NCBI RefSeq assembly: GCF_010015585.1
Contig: NW_022985074.1
Location: forward strand, 558,026 to 622,025
Direction of reading: 5' to 3'
Length of the DNA: 64,000 nt
Source: Eremomyces bilateralis CBS 781.70
Taxonomy: Eukaryota > Ascomycota > Dothideomycetes > Eremomycetales > Eremomycetaceae
Shown: piece after piece, positions 43,410 through 63,324 of the stretch
Layout: each line of letters starts with the position of its first letter
How positions within the stretch are numbered: position 1 is the first letter of the stretch
Notes under the pieces: generated by a model
Told to the model about the DNA's origin: nothing
What the model saw: the letters and a program-made list of their open reading frames with translations, nothing else
The model's database searches: none
Program-made: the position numbers and the translations under genes

Positions 43410-45058
43410 TTTGGCGGATTGAAGTGAGCGCTCTCTCACCACTACGTCCGCTGTATCCCCTACTCTTTCATAGATGATGGAAAAGTAAGATCGCAAAGAG
43501 TGCCTTGAATGTTACAAATTCCAGAATCGCCATCGGCACGATGTCTACGGACCGAACCCTTCCTTGAAGCCACCATTCGGCATGGGGAACCTCGGCAGCG
43601 GCGGCCTTCGTACCCCGTGACCCCAGCCACCTCGTCGGCCTTGCCAATGTCACATGACCGGCCAACCGCCGATTTTCGGCTGACTAAGGAATCCTGTGTA
43701 AGCTATTGTTCACGTATCACGATGCTTCCACCCTCCACTCAGCATCTCCCTCCTCTCCATCCTCCAGACAGTCTAAAGGCTTAGTATTGGTGTATCAGCT
43801 CTTCGATATTTCGGTCTTTTGAAATTGCCAAGAATCGATCCATCCTCAGAAGCCCAGCCGGTAACATTCACGTGGCACCTTGCAACAACCCATTCGGCAG
43901 CTCGGCGCGTCACAGTAGACGTGTCACATCATGGACATGCTCAAAGACCTGGACCCGCTGAATGAACTTCCTCAATAGAAATAATGACATTGCCTGCTCT
44001 GGTGGCACGTATTCATACGGGTTGTGCGATTTTGACCAAATGATTTGATTCTTGGAATGCATCTCCCATTGAATGTCCCTCAATTCGTAATGTCCAATTT
44101 AGACTAGATACTACACATGTCATCCATTATCTTAGGTTCCCCCATCTTTTTTATTAATATTATTTCTCTTGTCGGTCCTTTCTTTTCTCTTAGTGTTTGG
44201 GGTATTCCTTTCCTTTTCTCACGTCACTAGAGTCTCGCTTCGTTCCAGCTTGAATCTGAAACCCGAAGAGCCTCAAACGTGCGGTTAAAGTCATGCACCA
44301 CAGAATTTCGGAATCTCGTCCATCCGGTCAAAGCATTTCTCCTCGACCAGTAGTATGGCGGGACTTCTTACATGCGTTTCTCACATCCGTTCGGGCTTCC
44401 GACGCGTTCTGTTCGGGACGCCGTTTCGGAGCTGTGATACTCTTCAGCTAGGAGCCTTGGCATCCCCAGAGCCGCTCAACTTCGCACCCAGCATCATGCT
44501 TTCTCTCGTCTTCAATTGCGTGTCTTGCCTTCAGCATGGTATACTTTCCCATAGACACGATCTGCATCGAAGAGCTGACAGCATGGTTCTGGGCACGATC
44601 CTGCAATCATAGATTCTGGCCTGAGCAAGCCGATGAATCCCTTGGCTTGTGGGCGGGCCTCTGCCAACACGCAGTACCTAGATTTTTACTTAGAGCACCG
44701 ACTCGTTCCAGGGAGATCTAGCGTTTTCTCACGTACGCTCTGTGTCAAGATATTGATTGATTTTAGTAGAGATCGCCCTGTGCTACCCAGCCTTGTTCTC
44801 GGCACAATGGACGCATGATATACAAAAGGCCTCCGCTGTTCCCTCGATTCTCAAGTAGGCATAGCTTGGCGTAAGGTCTTCTTCCGAGTCCAAAGGTTCA
44901 GTTCTCTATCTCGTGCCGGTCACAGACTCTACCATTCATACTTTCCTTCATTTTATACTCTCCTTCATTTGTACGAGCTGTGCTCGACTGTCCGCTCCTT
45001 TGAAAGTGAGCGTTGTTCCTTTTGCATTTTCTCTTCATTACGCTCTCTTTCGGTCACG
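43410..45058. other. Divergent intergenic region (pex14 / secreted repeat protein)
   Basis: 1.65 kb. The part next to 45059 is pyrimidine-rich (CTTTCCTTCATT and TCTCCTTCATTT), common just upstream of strongly expressed fungal genes. Otherwise only unsupported short open frames are present. Confidence 0.5.
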
Positions 45059-46725
45059 ATGAAGGGACTTCTCCCTCTCACGACACTTCTCTACGTATCT
45101 TTCGTAGCAGCCAACCCGCTGCCAGGCGACCATGGCCGTAAGCATCAAAATACTTGTCTATCAACCTTCTCTAACACTGGTCAAGGCATCGCCGATCTAC
45201 AATCTCGAGGACAGCCCTTAAAGCAGATTAGGGACCAACCCAATATAGCCCGCCGATCCACTGGCCTCGCCTTCGCCAAACGCGGCCGGAATACTAAGGA
45301 TGCCGAAGATTCTGCCGATGCTGCCACCGAGGAAGCCGCTATTGCAGCATTAGAGGGCAATCAAGCAGATCCTGAAGCCGCTGCCGCTCCGGCATGCGCT
45401 GCGGCCCCAGCCGATGCCACCGCCGATGCCACCGCCGCCGCAGCCAACGATCCCGCCGTTATATCACCTGCCGCCCCGGAAGGTGCCGTTAACAGGGCAG
45501 AGGTCCACAAACCTGGCGCTCAAGCCGGTGTCGCTCCTGCAAAAGTTGTTATCCCGGCCAACGGTGCCGAAGATGCTGCCGATGTAGCCGCCGAGGAAGC
45601 CGCTATTGCAGCATTGGAGAGCCATGAAGCAAATACCCAAGCCGGTGCCGCTCCGACAATCGTTGCAACCCCAGCCGATATCACCGGCGTCGCAGCCAAA
45701 GACCCCGCCGTTACATCACCTGCCGCCGCGGAAGATGCCATTGGCGGGGCTGGGATCCACGAAGCTGGCGCTCAAGCCGGCGTCGCTCCTGCAGACATTG
45801 CTGCCCCCGCCAACGGCGCCGACATTGCGGGTAACGACACAGCCGTTGCAGCCCCAGACGCTGCAGGCAATGACACTGCTGTTGCAGCCCCGGCCGCTGC
45901 AGGAAATGACACTTCTGTTGCAGACCCAGCCGCTGCAGGAAATGATACTGCTGTTGCAGACCCAGCCGCTGCAGGAAATGATACTGCTGTTGCAGACCCA
46001 GCCGCTGCAGGAAATGATACTGCTGTTGCAGACCCAGCCGCTGCAGGAAATGATACTGCTGTTGCAGCACCGGCCGCTGCAGGCAACGACACCGCTGTCC
46101 CTGGAGGTAACGGCAAGGGAAACGGGAAAGGGAGAACTAAGGGAAAGGGGAATGAGAAGGGCAATACGGGTAAAGGAAATGGAGGGAATGGGAATGGGAA
46201 TGGGAATGCTGCTAAGGGCAAAGGCAAAGCTGCTGCGGCTACGGGAGCAGATGCCGGTGGCGACGGAAATGGTATCCAACGGCTAACTGCGATAGCGCAG
46301 AGTCTTGGGATTCTGAAGCGGGATCCGGAGCCGGAACCGCAGCTTACCGAGATTCTTGGCCAGATCTTGGGGAAGGGGAAAGGCAACAGTGCGAAGGGCA
46401 ATGGGAAGAATGCGGGAAAGGGTAAAGGCAAGAATGCGGCTCAGAACGTGGGAAAGCAGGCGAAGGGGAAGAAGGCTACAGCCAAGAACGGGAAAGGCAA
46501 AGCTGCAGTTGCTTGTACTGGTGAGTTTGGCATACTGTTTGACTCCACTTTATCCTGGAGCATCTGCTAATGTGTCCTATAGCTGCCGCACCAGCTGGAA
46601 CTGGTGCTGCCGTGGCAGCTCAAGCCACTGGCGGAGCTGCTGCTGCGGAGAATGCGACTGTCGCGGATACTAGCTTCCGTCGACGCGATCGTCGTGTCCG
46701 ACGAGCAATGGAACCCCGAGATTAG
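45059..46725 (+). CDS. Secreted Ala/Gly/Lys-rich tandem-repeat protein
   Basis: There are two exons (45059-46520, 46583-46725), giving 534 aa. The signal peptide is MKGLLPLTTLLYVSFVAA, cleaved before NPLPGD. Dibasic sites that Kex2-type proteases could cut occur at IARRS, FAKRG and ILKRDP. Two copies of an ~85-residue Ala-rich module begin EEAAIAALE. Next comes a block of about eight 12-residue repeats (GNDTAVADPAAA), each with an N-glycosylation sequon NDT. A Gly/Asn/Lys-rich region (GKGNGKG type) and a basic tail (FRRRDRRVRRAM) complete it. Neither a catalytic domain nor a GPI signal is visible. It may be a wall or matrix protein or a precursor cut into peptides. No function is known to me. 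Confidence 0.8.
45830..46105 (+). repeat. 36-bp coding minisatellite
   Basis: Seven full units and one partial unit of 36 bp start at 45830, 45866, 45902, 45938, 45974, 46010, 46046 and 46082. The central four are almost identical at DNA level, which suggests recent expansion. They encode GNDTAVADPAAA. Confidence 0.9.
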
Positions 46726-50996: not shown

Positions 50997-53515
50997 TTAC
51001 TGGCCGCATACACCTTCTGAATCCTGCTGCCCAGAGCTGCGGAGACAGGATGGGCACTTCGTGCTGACCTCGCAGGTATGGGTGGCATCCAATTCAGTCT
51101 TACACTGCGGTTCGTCGTCGATGGATCGCGTTTCATCAGTTTGGCATCCCATATCTCCGGATGAGGTCAATGGTGTAGAGTCCTTTCCGTCTAACCCATC
51201 GTTCAGGGCTGAGTTGGTATTGTCCTCCCGTGTTTTGCTGCCTTGAACATCGCTGTACTCGTCAGCCTCGTTCCGGGCCTGGTCGAGAGGTCCTTTCGAG
51301 TCTGAATGCAGGCGGAACAACATTCCATACCATGGGCGTGCATGCTGATCACCACTCACTTCGGTAACGTTTAACTCTGGTTCGGCGGTGGTTGCAGTCG
51401 AGGTTGTCGAACTGGCAGCATCGTCCTGATGGTCCTGGTGGTCCTGGTCATCCTGTGTGGCCTGTTCGTCCTGCTTATCCAGCTTGGCCTGCTCATCCAG
51501 TTCGTCCTGCTCGTCCAGATTGTCCAGTTTGGCCTGCTCATCCAGTTCGTCCTGTTCGTCCAGATTGTCCAGCTTGGCCTGCTCGTCCCGCTCGTCCCGC
51601 TCGTCCAACTTGTCCAGCTTGGCCTGCTCGTCCTGCTCGTCCTGCTCGCCCAGCTTGTTCATCTTGGCCTTCTCGCCTAGCTTTGCCAGCTTCTTCAGCT
51701 TCGCCTGCTCGTCCACGAAATTTTCCCAATCCCGCCAGTCCTCCCAATCCCGCAAATCCCGCCAGTCCCGCCAGTCCCGACAGTCTTGACAGATTTGGAA
51801 CTCATGGGCGTCATGCACGGTGTGCCAGTCCTTCCATTCCTGCTCGTCATAGTCGTCATAGTCCTTATACACCTCATATTCCTCCTTCCTGTCACGCTCG
51901 TCCTGCTCGTCATATTCGTCATATTCCTCATGCTCGTCCTGCTCGTCCTGCTCGTCCTGCTCGCCCTGCTCGCCCTGCTTCTCGTGCTCGTCGTGCTTGA
52001 GACATCGATGCAATTCCTCCATCAATTCCTCATCCGACTGGCTCATCTTCAGTGTTCGAAGGGTGCTACGATCATCTTGCGATCCATCATTCGCGGTTTG
52101 TACCGATGTGTCATTGGTGGACGGACGATCGTCTTCAACTGCGTCCTCGGGGTCCTTCATAGTACAGTCTGGGGCGTGGCGTCCGTTTTCAACGTGGAGA
52201 TTGGCTCCTTCAGGTTCACATACGGTACTTTCCACAGATTCCTGTCGGGGGGCGGAAGTATCGAGAGGAGCAGTCAAGACGAATACGGGTGAGTTTCGGC
52301 CGGATTGATGGAAAACACTGACTCCCTCGATAGGCGACGGCTGGGACTCATCCGATTTGGCTACGTAGGCAACCGCGGATGATGGGATGGTGCCCTTAGG
52401 GACATCTTCTGCATGCTGGTCGGTCAGCTTGGCCGTTGCCTCCTCGTCTTCGGGGTCGTCTTCGTGAGCTGTTTGCTGCTCAACCGTCTCCGTCACCTTC
52501 TCTGGTTCTTCCCTAGCAGCAACTTCGAGGTCATGGAAGATCTGGTCTGTGGCTGCGTCCAGTGACAAATGCGGAAGGGGTCGGACTTCTCGTCGACGAC
52601 TCCGACGCGGGGTCTCCGCTGCGTTCGGTTCCAATGGAAATCCGGTGCCTGGCATCGGGGTGATGAAACAATCCGTCCGGAAGGAAGTCGTGGGGCTTTT
52701 AAACTTTGGTTCCCGATCAGCAAAAGCACTGCTGGTACGTGCTTGATGCTCAAGGGCTGGGACCGTATCTTGTGCCTTCTCCGTGGTGTTCGCAGGCTGG
52801 AGTGCATCGGTAAATCCTCGATGCTCATAGTTTGGCGGCTTGTCGTCCAACTCCAGTGATCCGAAAATTTTGTGCTCAGGGCTGCTTCCATTGGCAGTGC
52901 GGTAGATTCGGCTGCTTTCTTGGCTGATCATCGACTCCAAGGAATCGGTGTTGATATCGACATCCATGAGAGGCGCAAGTCTGGGAGGCGCGGCGCGAAT
53001 AGGAATGGGAGATGAACGTGGAATATCTTGCCGCCCCTCGAAGACATCGTCACACATACTCGGGTCTCTTTTGTGACGGCTCCTGCTGAAAGTCGACACA
53101 TGGAGAATTCCGGAGGACCTGTAGACCGGAGGCTGCTCGGCGCTGGTCTCACTCGTGCACGAGCGATCCATGTGCATCAATGGATAACGGTCGCCATGAA
53201 CCGTCCAGTTCAACGCGGAAATATCGCGTCGCTTCTTTGGAGACTGTGAGACGGACCGTTGCACCAGTGACGAAGTGCGACTCGGGATAAAATCATTGTC
53301 CCCGACACTGTCATCACCACTAACAGTATTGGATCAGCGCTCCACGTGAGAAAGTCGATAGGCGGGTCTTACGGGAGGGATGCGTCCTCGGCGGACTTCA
53401 AAGCAACAAAGCTAGAAATGCTTGCACGAGCTCGCACCATTCGACGGGACACACTACTGAGGCTACGGGATACCGACCATCGGCCTTCCCGACGGCGTGG
53501 ACTCTCCGGTTCCAT
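50997..53515 (-). CDS. Acidic low-complexity protein with Asp/Glu/Gln repeats
   Basis: There are two exons (53515-53373, 53319-50997). The 53-bp intron joins at ...EDASLP/GDDSVGD, giving 821 aa. The first exon is needed because the large frame alone has only a GTG start. The N-terminal ~80 residues are Arg/Ser-rich. The middle is a disordered acidic region. Residues from about 510 to 700 are made of Asp, Glu, Gln, Lys and Leu, with a run of Trp-Arg-Asp triplets (DWRDWRDLRDWEDWRDW) and four 15-residue repeats. The C-terminal part has a possible CxxC (KCPSC). No known domain is seen. It is convergent with gatA with a gap of only 112 bp. The function is unknown. Confidence 0.72.
51484..51663 (-). 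repeat. 45-bp coding tandem repeat, four units
   Basis: Four adjacent 45-bp units (51484-51528, 51529-51573, 51574-51618, 51619-51663) encode a 15-residue motif close to DEQDELDEQAKLDNL. The first two units differ by only two bases. Flanking sequence continues with poorer GTCCTGCTC-type repeats. Confidence 0.88.
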
Positions 53516-54548: not shown

Positions 54549-55658
54549 ATGCCTAAGAAGCAGCACGAGCAGGCGTTCCGCGACATCATCGATACGGGTA
54601 ATTCTCCCTGGCGTTGAGAGGCCGAGATTATGGATCTAACTCATTCTAGCTCGCAAAAGGAAGCATACCGAGGCGTTGGCCCAGAAGATTCTTGGCTCCG
54701 GTGGCCGCCGGACCAGCGCGCCAGGATCCCTCGAGTCCCGCATTGACAAGCCGACGCATTCTCAAAGCATAGGAGGCGCGGTCCAGTCGGGGAGAGTGGG
54801 AAAGGTATCCCGATATCCCAGCTTCATCAGCTATGGTGTATACTGATATCGATGCAGAAAGCCAGACCAACCGCCATCGCGTCGACCGCAGCGTCGAAGC
54901 CCACCGCGCGGCGAGCTCGCGTGCAGAACCTCTACGAAGATGTTATCACAGCCGATAACAGTGCGCTGTCCAACATCGCCAGTGTTCGGCGCACCTCGGA
55001 CGCGATCCAGGTGAAAGGCATGGGATCTCCGAACACGGTCATTGCGAGCAACTTCGCGTATGGTACAACCGCGGCGGACATCGAGTCGGTCCTCCTTGCG
55101 CCAGAGAATGGGATTGATGGACTGTTACGGTGCCGTCTCCTCAGTTCGTCACCGACAGTCATCGCGGAGTTGACGTTCAGCGAGCGCTTCGCCGCCGAGA
55201 GAGTGATTGGGCTGTTCAACAACAAATCGGTAAGTGACAACCGCTGTTGCCGTCGAACGACGACTTAGACCAGTGCATAGGCCGATAACCACATCCTACA
55301 CGTCTACTTCAAAAATGAGCGCCAGCCCCCTGTCAAGGCCCCCGCAGCCAAACCCACTCCCACCCGATCCGCCGCAAAGGTTCTGCGCGGTCCACCGACG
55401 GGACCGAGACGCGATCGAGAGAGAGCCGAGGCCATGGAACTCGACGACCGAACGCCACCGAAGGCTCCCCGGGCGCAGGTGGAGAATCCTCGTCGCGCGC
55501 CGGCCGAGTTCCAGGATGGTCGATACGGGTTCGCGGAGGAGCCGGCGTACAATGAGAGTGGTGGAGGCGCTCGTCGGGGACGCAATTACGGGGGGGGTTC
55601 GTCGGGACTGCGGTCGGATGTGGTCATGTCCGACCGCGATCAGGGCTATCGCCGCTGA
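54549..55658 (+). CDS. RRM-type RNA-binding protein, Arg/Gly-rich tail
   Basis: There are four exons (54549-54597, 54650-54804, 54858-55229, 55281-55658), giving 317 aa. The short first exon gives MPKKQHEQAFRDIIDT. A basic, disordered region follows (ARKRKHTEALAQKIL). Next comes a degenerate RRM of about 80 residues (VIASNFAYGTTAADIESVLL ... TVIAELTFSERFAAERVIGLFN ... HILHVYFK). The last 100 residues are Pro/Arg-rich and end in Arg/Gly-rich sequence (GGGARRGRNYGGGSSG ... DQGYRR). This order, a basic head, one RRM and an RG-rich end, is like Aly/Yra1-type mRNA export adaptors, but I cannot assign it to that family with certainty. Confidence 0.78.
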
Positions 55659-56420
55659 ATGAATGCAGGCACCGACGGAGGAATCCGCATCGGCATATTC
55701 ATCATGAATGGGGGTCTGCGACGACCGACAATCGCGAATGATGGTTCTTGACCATTCACCGACATAGGGAAATATGTGCTGGGGGTGCGCATTCAGCGCT
55801 GGATACCAAGTTCTGGCTTATATAAATAGCACGGTTATTCCCGACACACTGTAATATACATAGTTGCCGTCCAAAATGGGCAAGGTGTTCGGGTACTTGC
55901 AAAGAATCCGAGACACAATTCACTCTGTGGATGATGTAGCTAGCACCTTGGGCACTTTGACGTGCCAAAAGACAGCTCTAAAAAGCACTTAGGATAATAT
56001 AGAAGTTGATAATTACCTTATCTATTTATTCGGATTAATCAAAGGCCCTACTGTAGTACTGAGTACTCACCTCTGCAGCTCTGCTTCAATTGCATCAACA
56101 GTGGAACAGTCCCCAATGCGGGAGCACCCGTTGAACTTGAACAGAACCCGGCATATCAATGTTACAAGTACGGAATACGGAGTACTAAATACCTCCTAAA
56201 CAGTCCTAACCCATACTAAATAAATACAGCTGGGCGTCCACGGTCCAAAGCCTAAACTCCCAAGTCCCAAATCCTCGAAGTTCGACGAGAAGACCCTGCA
56301 GACGGCTGCAGTACCGTAAACCCCGACCTCCGTCATTCTTAATTTCATCCCCATCAACCGCATCAGGGCTTTGATGACCCCGACCGTACCTTCAAATCCA
56401 CACCACTCATTGCCTACAAC
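55659..56420. other. Intergenic region upstream of the Med27-like gene
   Basis: 762 bp, AT-rich. It contains TACGGAGTA and GTACTGAGTAC, short near-palindromic motifs that are frequent in non-coding DNA of these fungi. No gene was recognised. Confidence 0.5.
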
Positions 56421-57414
56421 ATGACGTCCGTAAATCCCCCACCAGCTCCATCATGGAGCGAAGACGAGCTCATCGAGGCGCTGGCGCTTCTCGAAAACAT
56501 GCAAGAACAGGTACCGCCGCCCTCCTCACCCCCTCCCCAACCCATCTCCAGGCGACATACTAACCCCAACCCCCCCCCCGTAGCTCGATCTCCTCCGCAC
56601 CATTCCCGCCGGCATCATCCGCGCCCTCGGCGCTACCCATCTGTCCCCCGAAGACTACTTCCAGAACTTCCTCGTGCCCGCGCACGGCGGCTCGCGGCGT
56701 CTGAACAAGTTCTCGACCGACTGGCACGGCGCGCCAGTGCGTGGGATTGTGGAGCACGCGAGCGCGCGGGAGAAGGAGGACGCGGATCTGAGCGCGGGGT
56801 TGACGGTGCCGAAGTACGGGTGGAGGGAGCTGGCGAGGTCGAATGCGAGGGTGAAGAAGGAGGGGGAGGATGGGGAGAGGGGGACAAAGAGGGAGGAGGT
56901 GGAGGAGTTAGTGAAGGGGTTTGATGAGCAGACGGAGAAGGCCACGGTGAATTTTGATAAGGAGAGTTTGGTGATTAAGGTACGTGGTTCGCGGTCGGAG
57001 GGACGCGACGCAACTAATATATGGTACAGATACAGCTGAAGGTGCCACAGTGGAAACTGCGGTTCGTTCTGAATCCGGAGTTTGACGACCAGGACCATGT
57101 GGTCTATCAAGTAGAGTGTGTCGGCAGCAAACCCGCGCAAACCTCGATTACGCGGTGCATGAACAAACGCCCGGCTGCTGGCGACCTCCAATACCTTCTG
57201 GTACGTCCTCCGCCACCAGCGCAACCCCATGGCTAATTCCGAGCAGGACATGATCGGCGCGTATCAGGATGCCCCCTTCGTGACTTGCGCCATCTGCAAC
57301 AAAACCGTCAACCAACAGGTCATCCACCCCACCGGCCGACGCAGAAAGGAGATTAAGAACGACGACGGCACCACCGAGACCGTCTGGGAGCCCTACCACG
57401 AATCCTGCACCTGA
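56421..57414 (+). CDS. Mediator complex subunit 27-like protein
   Basis: There are four exons (56421-56510, 56584-56979, 57030-57200, 57247-57414), giving 274 aa. The N-terminal helix region (WSEDELIEALALLENMQEQ/LDLLRTIPAGIIRAL), a Ser/Lys/Glu linker and a C-terminal zinc-ribbon-like end fit Med27 of filamentous fungi. The end has CAICNKTVNQQVIHP and then YHESC, a C-x2-C...H-x2-C arrangement. Mediator links transcription factors to RNA polymerase II, and Med27 belongs to the tail/upper-middle region. The central block VPKYGWREL is also recalled from this family. The identification rests on overall layout rather than a diagnostic motif, so it is tentative. The stop lies only 18 bp from the stop of the next, convergent gene. 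Confidence 0.65.
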
Positions 57415-57432
57415 TCTCCCGTTCCGAGCGCA

Positions 57433-57897
57433 CTAAAACCCCTCCACCCACCCATGTGCATCCGGCACACCCCAATGCCCCCACACATCCCGCACCATCC
57501 CCCGCTCCGCATCCACATCGCTCCACGAATACGCCCGCGGGTACCGGTAGGTCCTTGACCGAAAATCGTACACCTTCCCCGGCCGCCGGTAGCGCGCGGC
57601 GGGCCACAGCGGCGGCAGGCTCGCGTCGTCCAAGAGAGGATCGAACTGGGTCCAGCGGCTCCAGCGGGCGCGGGGGACGGGCTGCGCCGCGGGTGAGGCA
57701 GTGATAGAGAGGAAAATGTCAGGGCCGCGGCCGGTGAGGAGGTCTTTCCAGCGGGAGCGGCGGGTGCCGTTGTGGTGGTCGCGCGGCCAGATGAGGTTGT
57801 AGTGGGGCTTGTCGATGCGGACGCGGTGGCCGTTGCGGACCCAGCCGACGCCTTTGATGAATTCGGGGCGGGGGTTGCGGGACCACGGGTTTTCCAT
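57433..57897 (-). CDS. Orphan 154-aa Trp/Arg-rich protein
   Basis: A single exon encodes MENPWSRNPRPEFIKGVGWV to HGWVEGF. The open frame continues upstream to 58053 only through a GTG, so the ATG at 57897 is preferred. The protein is rich in Trp, Arg, Pro and His (DKPHYNLIWPRDHHNG, RARWSRWTQFDPLLDD, RYPRAYSWSDVDAERGMVRD) and compact, without signal peptide or membrane helix. No known domain was recognised. The composition and lack of repeats suggest a real globular protein. Its 3' end is almost in contact with the Med27-like gene, so the two transcripts must overlap tail to tail. Confidence 0.65.
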   Translation of the reverse strand: MENPWSRNPRPEFIKGVGWVRNGHRVRIDKPHYNLIWPRDHHNGTRRSRWKDLLTGRGPDIFLSITASPAAQPVPRARWSRWTQFDPLLDDASLPPLWPAARYRRPGKVYDFRSRTYRYPRAYSWSDVDAERGMVRDVWGHWGVPDAHGWVEGF

Positions 57898-58393
57898 GTT
57901 ATGAAGATATGGCTGAGAGTTATGGGAGGCCGATGACAGATGCTTGGTGTTTAGCGGGGAATCGAGGAAGAATGGTATATTGGTGACTTGGATTACGGCC
58001 TTTGTTCCGAAGCGGCACTTATATTGAGCTCTGTCAAGGGGGGCAAACCGCACGACACATTTATGTTTGATATCGTGATTTTACGGATATGTAGAAGAGA
58101 ATTCATTGTTGCCAACAAACACTTGTCCTGCATCATGCTTTGATGCAGTAGGCAATCAGATGGGGAGTATGGTCCAAGGATCGGTCGTTGAAATGGGCGG
58201 GCATGATTGTTCTGCTCCCGGCAGATGTCAAATCGGGCAACATGCGTTAGAATCCGATCATTCCGGAGTTGATGTCACAACCGTAGCATCGTGGATCAAA
58301 TTGAGCAGAATCGCAAACGTTTGTAGACGCGGGTGATCTCGGATCTATTGACGGCTATACTGTACAGAAGATTTCTTCATAGCATTCGCTCCC
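57898..58393. other. Intergenic region (orphan-gene promoter, atp8 3' flank)
   Basis: About 500 bp without a recognisable gene. Confidence 0.5.
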
Positions 58394-58821
58394 TCACAGC
58401 TTGCTGATGAACAGCCTCGCCAACATCGTCCGCATGTTCTTCGGCAGGATATATTTGGTGAACACGTAGATCAGCGCCGGGATGAGGATGAACGCCGTGG
58501 TAACCTCGTTGACGAAGTAGAAGGGGATGAGCTGGGGCATGGCGGCGTAGAGCATGGTCTATGATATCGTCAGTACCGCGAATCCCACCACGCTCCTCGT
58601 CTAATGCCGTGACATACGTAGTTTGGCTTCTCCTGCTTCGCCGGGGCGGCCAATTGGTTCCGGGCCTGCTGCGCTCGGAACGAAGGAACCTTCACCGTGG
58701 ACACCTTCGCCGAGGTCGACGCGGCGCGGGCAATCAGGGACCGCGAGGCCGTGGATTGAAGGCCCAGCGATTGGCGCTGGAGGCCCTGCACAAGAGGGCG
58801 GAACAGTCGTGATGAGGACAT
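58394..58821 (-). CDS. atp8: Nuclear-encoded ATP synthase subunit 8 (A6L) with import presequence
   Basis: Subunit 8 is a small membrane protein of the mitochondrial ATP synthase stator and is normally encoded in fungal mtDNA. There are two exons (58821-58618, 58558-58394), giving 122 aa. Exon 1 (68 codons) is a classical matrix-targeting leader: MSSSRLFRPLVQGLQRQSLG, then RSLIARAASTSAKVSTVKV, rich in Arg, Ser and Ala with no acidic residue in its first 60. Exon 2 starts TMLYAA and then gives the complete A6L protein: MPQLIPFYFVNEV, one membrane segment (TTAFILIPALIYVFTKYILP), a basic stem (NMRTMLARL) and the family's C-terminal FISKL. The intron is 59 bp with a GTATGT donor. The frame has no lesions, so the gene looks functional. 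It could replace the mitochondrial gene or be a paralogue of it. Confidence 0.92.
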
Positions 58822-59461
58822 GATGCTAGCAAGCAATTAGCTGGTTGGGTGTTGGAGTCGGAAGGTTTGCGGGCAGAGCATACGGAGCGGGTGGATGGGT
58901 AGGAGGGGTCAGAGTCGGTTTGATGGACCAATTCCACAATCAAAGTCAGCCACACCGACGTCGGTAAGGCAGCTGATGAATTGATGGATGGGATGGAGGT
59001 TGGAAGGCCGTTGGTTGATCGGACGGGTCGTGGTAGAAGCTCTCTCTCGACCATCAAGTTTGGGTTGGAATCCACGAAGCATGAGGTCGGAGAAACTGCG
59101 GCCGGCAAAAGGATGATCCGGAGCAGGGATATATGTGGCTGATTTACTGTGGCTGATTTACTGTGGCTGAAGTGCTTCACTGCTTTTTTCTGTTTTTCTA
59201 CAAACAAAACCGCGTTCACGTGTTTGGGTGCAGGGGGTTGCGCTCTGCATATCGGAGCTTCACCTTTCGCTCCATCAGACTGGCATCGTTGCTATGAAAA
59301 GTTGCTTGCTAAAAGGAGCTTTCACGCTCCCTCTCTACCCTCCCCCTACCCAGTCGATTGGTTCCCTTCAGTGACACCGATATTGTTGAAACTCCTTTCT
59401 CCGTTTGATCCCCATACCGAACGACACACCTTCCTCCAACCCACGATCCACGCCGCCCACC
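58822..59461. promoter_or_regulatory. Divergent promoter (atp8 / nic96)
   Basis: 640 bp lie between two opposite start codons. A tandem TGTGGCTGATTTAC duplication lies at about 59133-59166. Pyrimidine-rich sequence precedes the nic96 ATG. Confidence 0.55.
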
Positions 59462-62400
59462 ATGTCGCTCTTTTCGAAGTTGAATACTGGGCAAACAACT
59501 CAGTCGAGCCTATTCAACCCGACGAGCACCACTTCAGCGGCCCCAACATCATTCAGCAGCCTTTTTGGAGCACCGCAAGGGACCCAGCCCCAGAGCAATC
59601 AGAGCAATCCTGCGACATCCAACCCAATGTCACAGGGTACACAACCTTTCGGTCTTAGCCTGGGAGCGACCACAAGTTCATCACAACCTCCGCAGCCTAC
59701 ACAGCCTGCACAGCCTTTCGGTCTTGGGTTTGGAGCGACGACAAGTTCATCACAGCCCGCGCAGGTAGCACAGCCAGTGCAGCAACCACAGCAGAACACC
59801 CAAAACAACCAACAGGCGACCGGCGGTTCCAGTCAATCGGCATATTTCGATCACCTCCTGGAACGAGCCCGAAAGAACAACAAAAACAATGGCGTCTCGC
59901 AGTTCGGGGAGCTGCCGAACCTCCAATTGGGGCTGGCGGACATCGCCCGGAAAGTGCGAGATCTGGGGACGGGCGGCCCGGCGGAAGCTGGAGCACCGGG
60001 AACGAACGCGTATGTGTAACTTGTGACCGGAGTTTATTTGCGCTTCATCTCATGTGCCCCCCATGCTGACCACGATTCAATTCTAGACAATATCTCCTCG
60101 CTGCTTCGGGCGTGTCAGTCGCGTCTGCCTTGCGCGATCTGAACGACGTCACTGCGCGATCGGGAACAAACGTCGCCGCGCAAGCTGCCAACGAACCGGA
60201 CGCCGATATCGACGCCTATGTCGCCGGCCTCCATGCGCAAACAACGTCCGACCTCATCACGCAGAGTTTGGAGCAATCCAAACGGGACTTCGATGCGTTT
60301 TTGGAGGAAAATGTTCAGATGGAATGGGATGCTCAGCGACGACGCATCTATGAGCACTTTGGCTTGGTTGGTGCAAGGGAAGAGGATGGTAGTGTCGACG
60401 CGTCACAGAGTGGTTTTGGCAGGTCGTCCCGGAGAAACAGACCATTGGCAGCCTCTACATCGGTATTGGATCTTGGTCAGAACGGCATGTCCATTCGAAA
60501 ATCGGTCATTGGAAATGCGGGAAAGCGAACACTTCGTGGATCCGCCCTGGGGGATCTCCCCAAGGAAAACTCAGGAAACAACCTTGCCTCCATCGGTGGC
60601 GATGCCAGTGCACATTTCCAACGGAACAAGCAAGAGAAATATGGCCAGAAGGTATCGGAGCTCAATCAGGCTCGGATCGGTGAGTTGACATACCCGCTCC
60701 TAACCCAGTTCTGCGAGGTCGAAGCTCAATCCAACGTGGACGATACCTCCTATTTGGTAGATTCCTACAAATCGCTCATCGAAGGTACGGAAGAGTCAGC
60801 GGTGCAGACGTCGCTGGATCAACCGGGCGCCATACGGGAGCGGAAATTTGCTCGGCTATACTTGAGCGATGATGCGCAACGATCCATGGACATTCGGAAG
60901 CGAATTCTCAACGGATCGAGGAAGTCGCTAGAGAACAAATTCCTCGCGCACGTCGACGCAACCATCGAGCGCAACCCGAAGGAGGCAAGGCTTGGAGGCA
61001 TCCCTACGATTCTCAACCGTGTCCGAGCATACATCCGAGTCGCCACCTACCAAAAGGAGCTGGGTGCTGAAGTGGAGCAACTCCAGACTCTCAACGACGA
61101 TTACCTGTGGGTTCTCATCTACTACCTCATCCGGTGCGGCCTGGTCACCGAAGCGGCTCAGTATGTCCAAGACAGCCAACGGGCCATCGTGGGAATCGAC
61201 CGCACATTTCCCCAGGTCATGTCCGCCTACGCCAATGACCCCGAGCGAACGCTGCCTCCTGATTTAGCGCTTCGCCTTCGCCAAGAGTGGAACCGGCAGT
61301 CTAGCTATCCCACGGAGCAAGTCGATCCGTACCGGATGGCATGCTACAAAGTCATTGGCCGCATCGAGCTCGAGCGACGCACGTTGCCAAACATCAACAT
61401 GAGTCATGAGGACTGGATCTGGCTGCAGTTTGCTCTGGCGCGGGAGTCGCGGCCCGAACAGGAGCTTGCGGCCAATGTGTTCGACCTGGCTGCATTGCGA
61501 CAAACCGTGGTCGATATTGGGAATCGGCACTTCAAGGCCGGCGCGGACAACATCGAAAGCCCGGGCACGTTCTTCCACCTGCAGATGCTCGTTGGCATGT
61601 ACGAGCAAGCGGTCGCGTGGCTCTACGACTTCAACCACGTCGCGGCCATCCACTTCGCCATCGCGCTGGAATACTACGGACTACTTCGCGTTTCCGATTT
61701 CAACCAGTCCGAGCTCCTGGGCTTCAGCACGCGAGAGGAACCGCAGATCAACTTCGCGTTGATGGTCGGCCACTACACGGGCGACTTCCGCTCCGCCAAA
61801 CCCGAGCTCGCCGTCGACTACCTCACCCTCATCTGCCTCAATTCCGACCTGGAAGGCGCGCTCGGCGAGCGACAGTCGCAAATCTGCCTCGAGGCGCTGC
61901 GCGAACTCGTCCTCGAGACCAGGGAGTTCGCCCTCCTTCTCGGCGACATTCTCGCCAACGGGGAACGCATCCAGGGCGCGATCCAACGGCGCTCGAGGCT
62001 CATCCGCATTCAGAACGAAGATACCTTCCTGCAGTTCATCACCTCCCAAGCCGCCGCGGTGGCAGAAGACTGCGGCCGCGTCACCGACGCCGTACTCCTC
62101 TACCATCTCGCCGAAGACTACGACAGCGTCGTTTCCGTCCTGAACAAGACTCTATGCGAAGTCATCTCCACGGAGCTAGGCCAAGAGCGAATCCGACTGA
62201 TCCCGCCGAAGCCGCGTGTCCAGACACCCGGCGAAGCGAAACCGGAGCTGCAGAGCTCATTAAGCCTGACGACGGTGGACGACCCGTCGATCCTGGCCGA
62301 TAGTATCCGGCGGTTGTACATGAGCAGCCAGGAATTCTCCCGGCGGATCACGAAGTCCAACTGGGAGATACTGGGGCGGATGGTGATGCTTGCGAAGGCG

Positions 62401-62853
62401 CGAGATCTAGTCAATCAGGGAAATTGGGATGGCGCTCTCATGGTAAGTTCCCCAGATCCTCTCTCGCAACCCGCGTTCTCGTGGAGGTGGAGATGTTATT
62501 GACGCGCGACTAACTCACGATCCCAGGTCACTAAGCAGACTAATCTCCTCCCGCTCTCCGCGCAAGGCGACATCGCCGCCATCCGTACCGCTGCGAACAA
62601 CTTCAATGCGTACCCCGAACTGTTGGCGCGCACCGTCGGCCCGCTGCTGCTCTACACCATCGTCGCGTGCGGGCAGGAGCGCAAGCGGCTGCGGGGGTCG
62701 CCGTACTTCGACGCGACAAAGGTGACGCGCGTGGAGGAGTTGGGGCAGGACGCGCGGGATCTAATGGTGTTTGCGGGGCTGGTGAGGTATCGGTTGGAGG
62801 GCCGCGTGTTCGAGGCGTTGGCGAGGGCTGGGGGAGATGCGGAGGTGGCGTGA
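59462..62853 (+). CDS. Nucleoporin Nic96 (inner-ring scaffold)
   Basis: Nic96 (vertebrate Nup93) is a scaffold protein of the nuclear pore inner ring and anchors the Nsp1 channel complex through its N-terminus. There are three exons (59462-60009, 60087-62442, 62527-62853), giving 1076 aa. The N-terminal ~130 residues are Gln/Ser/Thr/Asn-rich with FG-like bits (LFGAPQG, PFGLSLGA, PFGLGFGA). YFDHLLERARKN is the channel-binding helix. The long alpha-helical solenoid contains WDAQRRRIYEHFGLV, RIGELTYPLLTQFCEVE, YLWVLIYYLIRCGLVTEAAQY, WIWLQFALARE and FHLQMLVGMYEQAVAWLY. The last exon encodes TNLLPLSAQGDI and ends RAGGDAEVA. The phases 2 and 0 at the two introns are consistent, and the ATG at 59462 lies in a good ACC context. 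Confidence 0.95.
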
Positions 62854-63324
62854 TTGGGAGTTGGGGGGTTGGGGGAAACGCAGGGTTTCTCTCGATATGG
62901 CTAGGGAATGGGAATAAAATCATGAGGATGTTGATATACCCTTGTTAGATATGGAGGTAGAGATGAGCCAACAGGACCAAATGCAGACCCCGGTTGCCAT
63001 CCGTCAACTTGGTGCTCCACCGTATATCTCGTTGAGTTTCTTGGTCTATCCTGACGGAGCAGGATTAGCAGGTGTCGACACTATGAAGTATGACGATTTT
63101 AATGTCACGTCCTTCGATACATAACAACACTTTATACATGATTGGATAGACTGCAGTTCAGTAGTATCAGGATATCTTGGACAGAGTGAGATACTCTGGG
63201 CGATCTGATGATGCTTTCCATGGCGCGTCTACCCCACCAACTCCTTCATAATCCAGCCCAAAAAATCTCTATTCCCCGCAACAATAGCCACCGTCAAAAA
63301 AGCTACAAAAGCAGAGGCTGCAAA
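62854..63324. other. Intergenic region downstream of nic96
   Basis: About 470 bp. Short open frames (62942-63124 plus; the tail of a frame on the minus strand) have no support. Confidence 0.5.

Follow-up and report, generated by a model that had tools for sequence, protein, structure and literature searches.

Does the short gene at positions 58394-58821 of this DNA encode ATP synthase subunit 8 (Atp8, or A6L) from the nucleus, and has it taken over from the mitochondrial gene? The question was raised by a sequence-only reading, whose coordinates are correct; the strand, which it left unstated, is minus. The DNA is a stretch of 64,000 nucleotides (the window), and coordinates throughout are positions within it. 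We conclude, with a probability of about 0.83, that the locus is a functional, long-established nuclear ATP8 which arose by mitochondrion-to-nucleus transfer and most likely replaced the mitochondrial gene.

Gene anatomy and identity of the protein

The nuclear atp8 locus is a two-exon gene on the minus strand, running from an ATG at 58821 to a stop at 58394. Exon 1 (58618-58821, minus strand; 204 nt, 68 codons) contains the start codon and a basic leader, putatively a matrix-targeting presequence plus linker. It is followed by a 59-nt, phase-0 spliceosomal intron (58559-58617, minus strand; GTATGT...TACTGAC...ATAG), which was assigned by sequence and has GT-AG borders and, as read by eye, TACTGAC as its likely branch site. 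Exon 2 (58394-58558, minus strand) encodes the six residues TMLYAA and the complete 48-residue Atp8 and ends with a TGA stop. Removal of the intron would unite the leader with the Atp8 frame, which is intact across it, and the predicted spliced product has 122 amino acids, with TMLYAA directly preceding Atp8 at residues 75-122. Five AG acceptors were tried with a single GT donor. Joining to the AG that immediately precedes 58558 gave a frame containing all of MPQL...SKL, and the AG directly ahead of 58531 kept the frame at the cost of MPQ; of the remaining three acceptors, one led to a stop and two placed the Atp8 region in another frame. Because the junction does not split a codon and stands six codons ahead of the Atp8 methionine, the leader and the mitochondrial-type protein occupy separate exons.

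The predicted product of 58394-58821 would yield peptides of the form MPQLIPFYFVNEVTT..., and in a profile search its residues 75-122 matched positions 1-48 of 48 in PF05933 (E 2.5e-19). The score of 69.6 bits, against a Pfam gathering cut-off of 26.1, makes this a full-length family match, and yeast Atp8 (PDB 6b2z) aligns over all 48 residues with 24/48 identical (E 1.1e-10). Judged from these alignments, the match to Atp8 is far beyond chance. All 48 profile positions are thus covered up to the final SKL, which bears out the claim that exon 2 holds the complete A6L protein. The Atp8 part shows the hallmarks of PF05933, namely an MPQL N-terminus, one membrane helix (hydrophobic residues 14-32) and the basic tail PKNMRTMLARLFISKL. 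With mitochondrially encoded fungal Atp8 (PF05933; yeast 6b2z) it shares the 48 positions, the MPQL start, the single membrane helix and the basic C-terminus, whereas it differs in its nuclear location, its intron, the 68-residue leader with TMLYAA, its GC-rich codons and a proline at position 21.

Origin of the probable transfer and fate of the mitochondrial gene

Nuclear atp8 is not new as an idea, since it has already been published for Pleosporales (PMC5626475, PMC11881002). In Stemphylium lycopersici (Pleosporales), the mtDNA lacks atp8 and atp9, and both are nuclear genes with N-terminal extensions predicted to be mitochondrial-targeting, while in Zymoseptoria and Zasmidium both genes are still in the mtDNA (PMC5626475). 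Neither gene was identified in the mtDNA of five Pleosporales species (PMC4366305), and both are in the nuclear genome of Shiraia-like species (PMC11881002). A paper on Bipolaris sorokiniana lists atp8 as missing in 9 of the 20 fungal mtDNAs compared (PMC7225605), and one on Macrophomina gives atp6 and atp9 as the ATP-synthase genes of the mtDNA, although a figure legend nonetheless names atp8 in a tree (PMC8451660). Like Stemphylium lycopersici (TW65_04673) and other Pleosporales, the fungus studied here has a nuclear atp8 together with a nuclear atp9, pieces of whose precursor gene lie on contig C4 near 531,640. An N-terminal extension is common to our gene and that of Stemphylium, in which targeting is predicted and the absence of atp8 from the mtDNA was shown as well. 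With nuclear atp8 on record for one fungal order, the gene reported here adds a good example to a known kind.

The transfer may have been inherited within Dothideomycetes or may be independent of the one in Pleosporales, having occurred for example in a Eurotiomycete lineage. The latter would be compatible with our main reading, and we consider it rather unlikely. Isocitrate lyase speaks for it, being 82.4% identical to PDB 1dqu compared with 78.0% for 5e9f and 75.5% for 5e9h, where the identity between 5e9f and 5e9h is also 82.4%. FAS-beta, however, is near-equidistant, with 79.2% identity to 4v58 and 77.8% to 7q5s (4v58 and 7q5s share 78.1%), computed over 638-639 residues, which are part of the alignment. 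We take 1dqu to be from Aspergillus nidulans, 5e9f and 5e9h from two Sordariomycetes, and 4v58 and 7q5s from Thermomyces and Chaetomium. With one enzyme leaning to 1dqu and the other nearly equidistant from two classes, the assignment to Eurotiomycetes suggested by the sequence-only reading is not established. These values suit a lineage of Pezizomycotina lying outside both Eurotiales and Sordariomycetes; taken with the nuclear atp8-atp9 pair they make Dothideomycetes the best guess, an early Eurotiomycete being less probable. Also against an independent event, the combination of nuclear atp8 and nuclear atp9 is the pattern of Pleosporales (PMC5626475), and the Eurotiomycete mtDNAs compared, those of five dermatophytes, retain atp8 (PMC2693141).

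Whether the nuclear gene replaced or merely accompanies a mitochondrial one depends on the mtDNA. A search of the 26.6-Mb genome returned a single Atp8 match. Cox1, cytochrome b and atp6 had no match anywhere in the assembly, nor did 5.8S rRNA or the ITS3 primer site. In a control on fungal mtDNA, the cox1 search found stretches in three of four records (two of the four above the cut-off), the only record without one being a 13.6-kb fragment, and PF05933 detected atp8 in all four. Since cox1, cob and atp6 are unmatched, though the cox1 search works on fungal mtDNA, the mtDNA was apparently left out of the assembly. This leaves room for a retained copy, in which case our gene would be a nuclear paralogue beside a mitochondrial atp8, with both proteins made and their roles perhaps divided. 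In keeping with such an arrangement, atp8 belongs to the standard fungal mtDNA set and is retained in Zymoseptoria and Zasmidium (PMC5626475) as well as in the five dermatophyte mtDNAs (PMC2693141). Yet where nuclear atp8 has been reported, the mtDNA is without the gene (PMC5626475, PMC11881002), and the portions of the literature consulted contain no dual-copy case, so that a paralogue appears quite improbable. The preferred reading, a nuclear gene that replaced the mitochondrial one, is supported by analogy, as the presence of nuclear atp9 completes the pair seen in Stemphylium, whose mtDNA lacks both. Because no mtDNA in which to look for atp8 was found in the assembly, we infer the replacement and the loss of the mitochondrial gene.

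Relatives of the nuclear protein were also sought in other collections. With tblastn, it had no relatives in viral contigs (37 stretches examined) or in genome contigs (320 stretches, chosen by narrow patterns), and none was found in the phages searched. The negative result for genome contigs is attributed to the narrow patterns, because two were recovered from that collection once a broader degenerate pattern was used. Across the viral and genome collections this pattern yielded seven stretches, four of which encode mitochondrial Atp8 and three of which are chance matches; subsequent viral scans, two in number, again gave the pair of contigs already found. Two further mitochondrial Atp8s came from 'plasmid' records, only the first of which was recovered by the yeast query.

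Several of these records appear to be misfiled. Two PLSDB 'plasmids' resemble mitochondrial genomes of fungi entered under bacterial plasmids: both NZ_CP110134.1 (26,651 bp, Peribacillus frigoritolerans Q2H1) and NZ_CP053901.1 (pJPM35-3, 26,385 bp, Proteus mirabilis YPM35) contain stretches of fungal atp8 and cox1. In the former the cox1 match scores below the curated cut-off; in the latter the Atp8 reading is shifted near its start and was used from residue 10 only. Stretches of 8 kb with about 29% G+C and a complete fungal mitochondrial-type atp8 in NZ_BMRP01000034.1 (Streptomyces albospinus) and NZ_BMCE01000010.1 (Fictibacillus barbaricus) represent apparent contamination of bacterial assemblies by fungal mtDNA. 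Finally, the IMG/VR UViGs 3300030114_000526 and 3300031938_000405 carry fungal mitochondrial atp8, the former also split cox1 stretches, and are probably mtDNA filed as virus.

Codon use and nuclear surroundings

The locus lies on contig C8, which is 997,570 bases long and one of the 62 contigs that make up the 26.6-Mb assembly. The Atp8 core has G or C at 45 of 48 third codon positions, as opposed to 7, 4, 3, 5 and 5 of 48 in all five full-length mitochondrial atp8 genes measured. Six long frames of the window, selected from those scanned and read from stop to stop, so that they may take in non-coding bases, have a third-position G+C of 58-76%; elsewhere in the genome the counts are 62/75 and 34/42 for the atp9 pieces, 1408/1782 for FAS-beta and 360/536 for isocitrate lyase. 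The chance of reaching at least 45/48 is about 2e-5 if the base rate is taken as 0.68, and 1.3e-3 if it is taken as 0.76. Such biased codon use is of the kind expected of an expressed gene and points to a resident gene rather than a recent insertion.

The surroundings are nuclear as well. In steps of 500 bases from 55000 to 63000, G+C ranges from 0.48 to 0.64, without any strongly AT-rich patch. The adjoining gene, at 59462-62502 on the plus strand, encodes the nucleoporin NIC96 (Nup93 family; PF04097, E 7.1e-168, profile positions 3-513 of 607 in the frame 60070-62499). Its ATG at 59462 and a likely intron at about 60010-60086 were placed by eye, and the C-terminal part is probably completed by another exon past the end of the 59462-62502 frame. 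The two genes are read divergently from an intergenic stretch at 58822-59461, which from its position is presumed to hold both promoters. Farther off in the window, a plus-strand frame at 44819-46570 has AAGNDTAVA-type repeats and stretches rich in Gly, Lys and Asn and possibly encodes a secreted or wall protein, and a minus-strand frame at 50997-53333 contains strongly repetitive stretches rich in Asp, Glu and Gln, of the QDEQDE and KLDNLDEQDE types; neither matched a Pfam family.

The GC-rich third positions (45/48), the adjoining NIC96 gene and the GT-AG intron agree with the earlier description of a nuclear atp8 in nuclear surroundings; the putative import-type leader of that description is likewise supported. 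A non-functional mtDNA insertion (numt) or a chimeric mitochondrial/nuclear contig has a negligible chance of being the explanation, given third-position G+C at 45/48 instead of 3-7/48, a lowest 500-base G+C of 0.48 at the locus, a frame intact with intron and leader, and the lack of matches to cox1, cob and atp6 in the assembly. We found no point in support of either idea and dropped both, and mis-assembly with mtDNA, which the sequence-only reading had named as grounds for rejecting its proposal, is effectively excluded by composition, frame and surroundings.

Leader, membrane helix and proposed import

The leader had been described as rich in Arg, Ser and Ala, and rightly so: its 68 residues include 11 K/R and one D/E, the acid standing at position 64 so that the first 63 residues are acid-free. 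Its helical moment was reached by 269 of 5000 shuffles, a modest excess in what is a weak test for an amphipathic helix. A genome search with the leader gave one match, itself, at E up to 10, and the idea that it was borrowed from another gene was rejected on this result, with one candidate only having been scored.

Expression and splicing of the gene would lead to a 122-residue precursor made on cytosolic ribosomes, which the basic leader would guide through TOM and TIM23 and from which a matrix peptidase would trim the leader, partly or wholly. The position of the cut may matter. If the leader were cleaved early only (after residues 27-36), the remaining linker would have a net charge of +5 to +6; its crossing to the intermembrane space is expected to be unfavourable, and because such a linker would have to reach that space, a second cleavage closer to MPQL may be required. 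In the known topology of Atp8, the membrane helix is on the N-terminal side and the second, C-terminal helix is exposed to the matrix (PMC5893901). The residues following the membrane helix of the nuclear Atp8 are basic.

Within that membrane helix, the nuclear Atp8 has a proline at position 21 which is absent from seven of seven mitochondrial Atp8s, six of them full length and one used from residue 10, the nuclear side being one sequence. Helices of conservatively sorted proteins are often less hydrophobic and proline-rich (PMC11452304). Averaged over residues 14-32, hydropathy is 1.72, compared with 1.33 to 2.57 in the mitochondrial set, where two of the seven lie lower. The summed cost on a membrane-insertion scale is 3.08 compared with -1.26 to 3.49; one of the seven exceeds it, and 2.23 of the cost comes from the proline by itself. 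A lower overall hydrophobicity as the feature that enabled transfer is therefore unsupported, since 1.72 falls within the mitochondrial range. We tentatively suggest, while regarding it as doubtful, that the gained proline 21 might switch Atp8 from arrest at TIM23 to full matrix import and insertion by Oxa1. Arrest at TIM23 would yield the wrong orientation, while Oxa1 insertion would yield the required N-out, C-in orientation. The portions of the literature consulted do not mention a proline in nuclear Atp8, and we make no claim that it is unpublished.

These observations bear on the view that A6L is very hydrophobic and rarely moves. The second half agrees with a listing that places atp8 with genes transferred fewer than six times (PMC10809612); the first overstates the barrier, because there is a single membrane helix in Atp8 and the yeast protein was functional from the nucleus when given a targeting sequence and recoded (PMC3420929). 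That allotopic yeast protein is synthesised in the cytosol behind an N-terminal targeting sequence, as is predicted for the present one, but the former was engineered and its function shown, whereas this gene is natural and its function is deduced. The nuclear Atp9 of Podospora anserina is likewise a fungal ATP-synthase subunit with an import leader; it has two helices, and a less hydrophobic helix 1 was required for nuclear expression in yeast (PMC3420929), in contrast to the nuclear Atp8 studied here, whose overall hydrophobicity is inside the mitochondrial range.

The gene is a clean nuclear copy in which the leader occupies one exon and a complete, recognisable Atp8 the other, and it is a natural counterpart of laboratory allotopic expression. 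If the suggestion about proline 21 is true, the key adaptation would be a one-residue change of topology and not a lower overall hydrophobicity. Should the proline recur in nuclear but not in mitochondrial Atp8s, it would provide a testable one-residue rule for relocating an N-out membrane protein to the nucleus.
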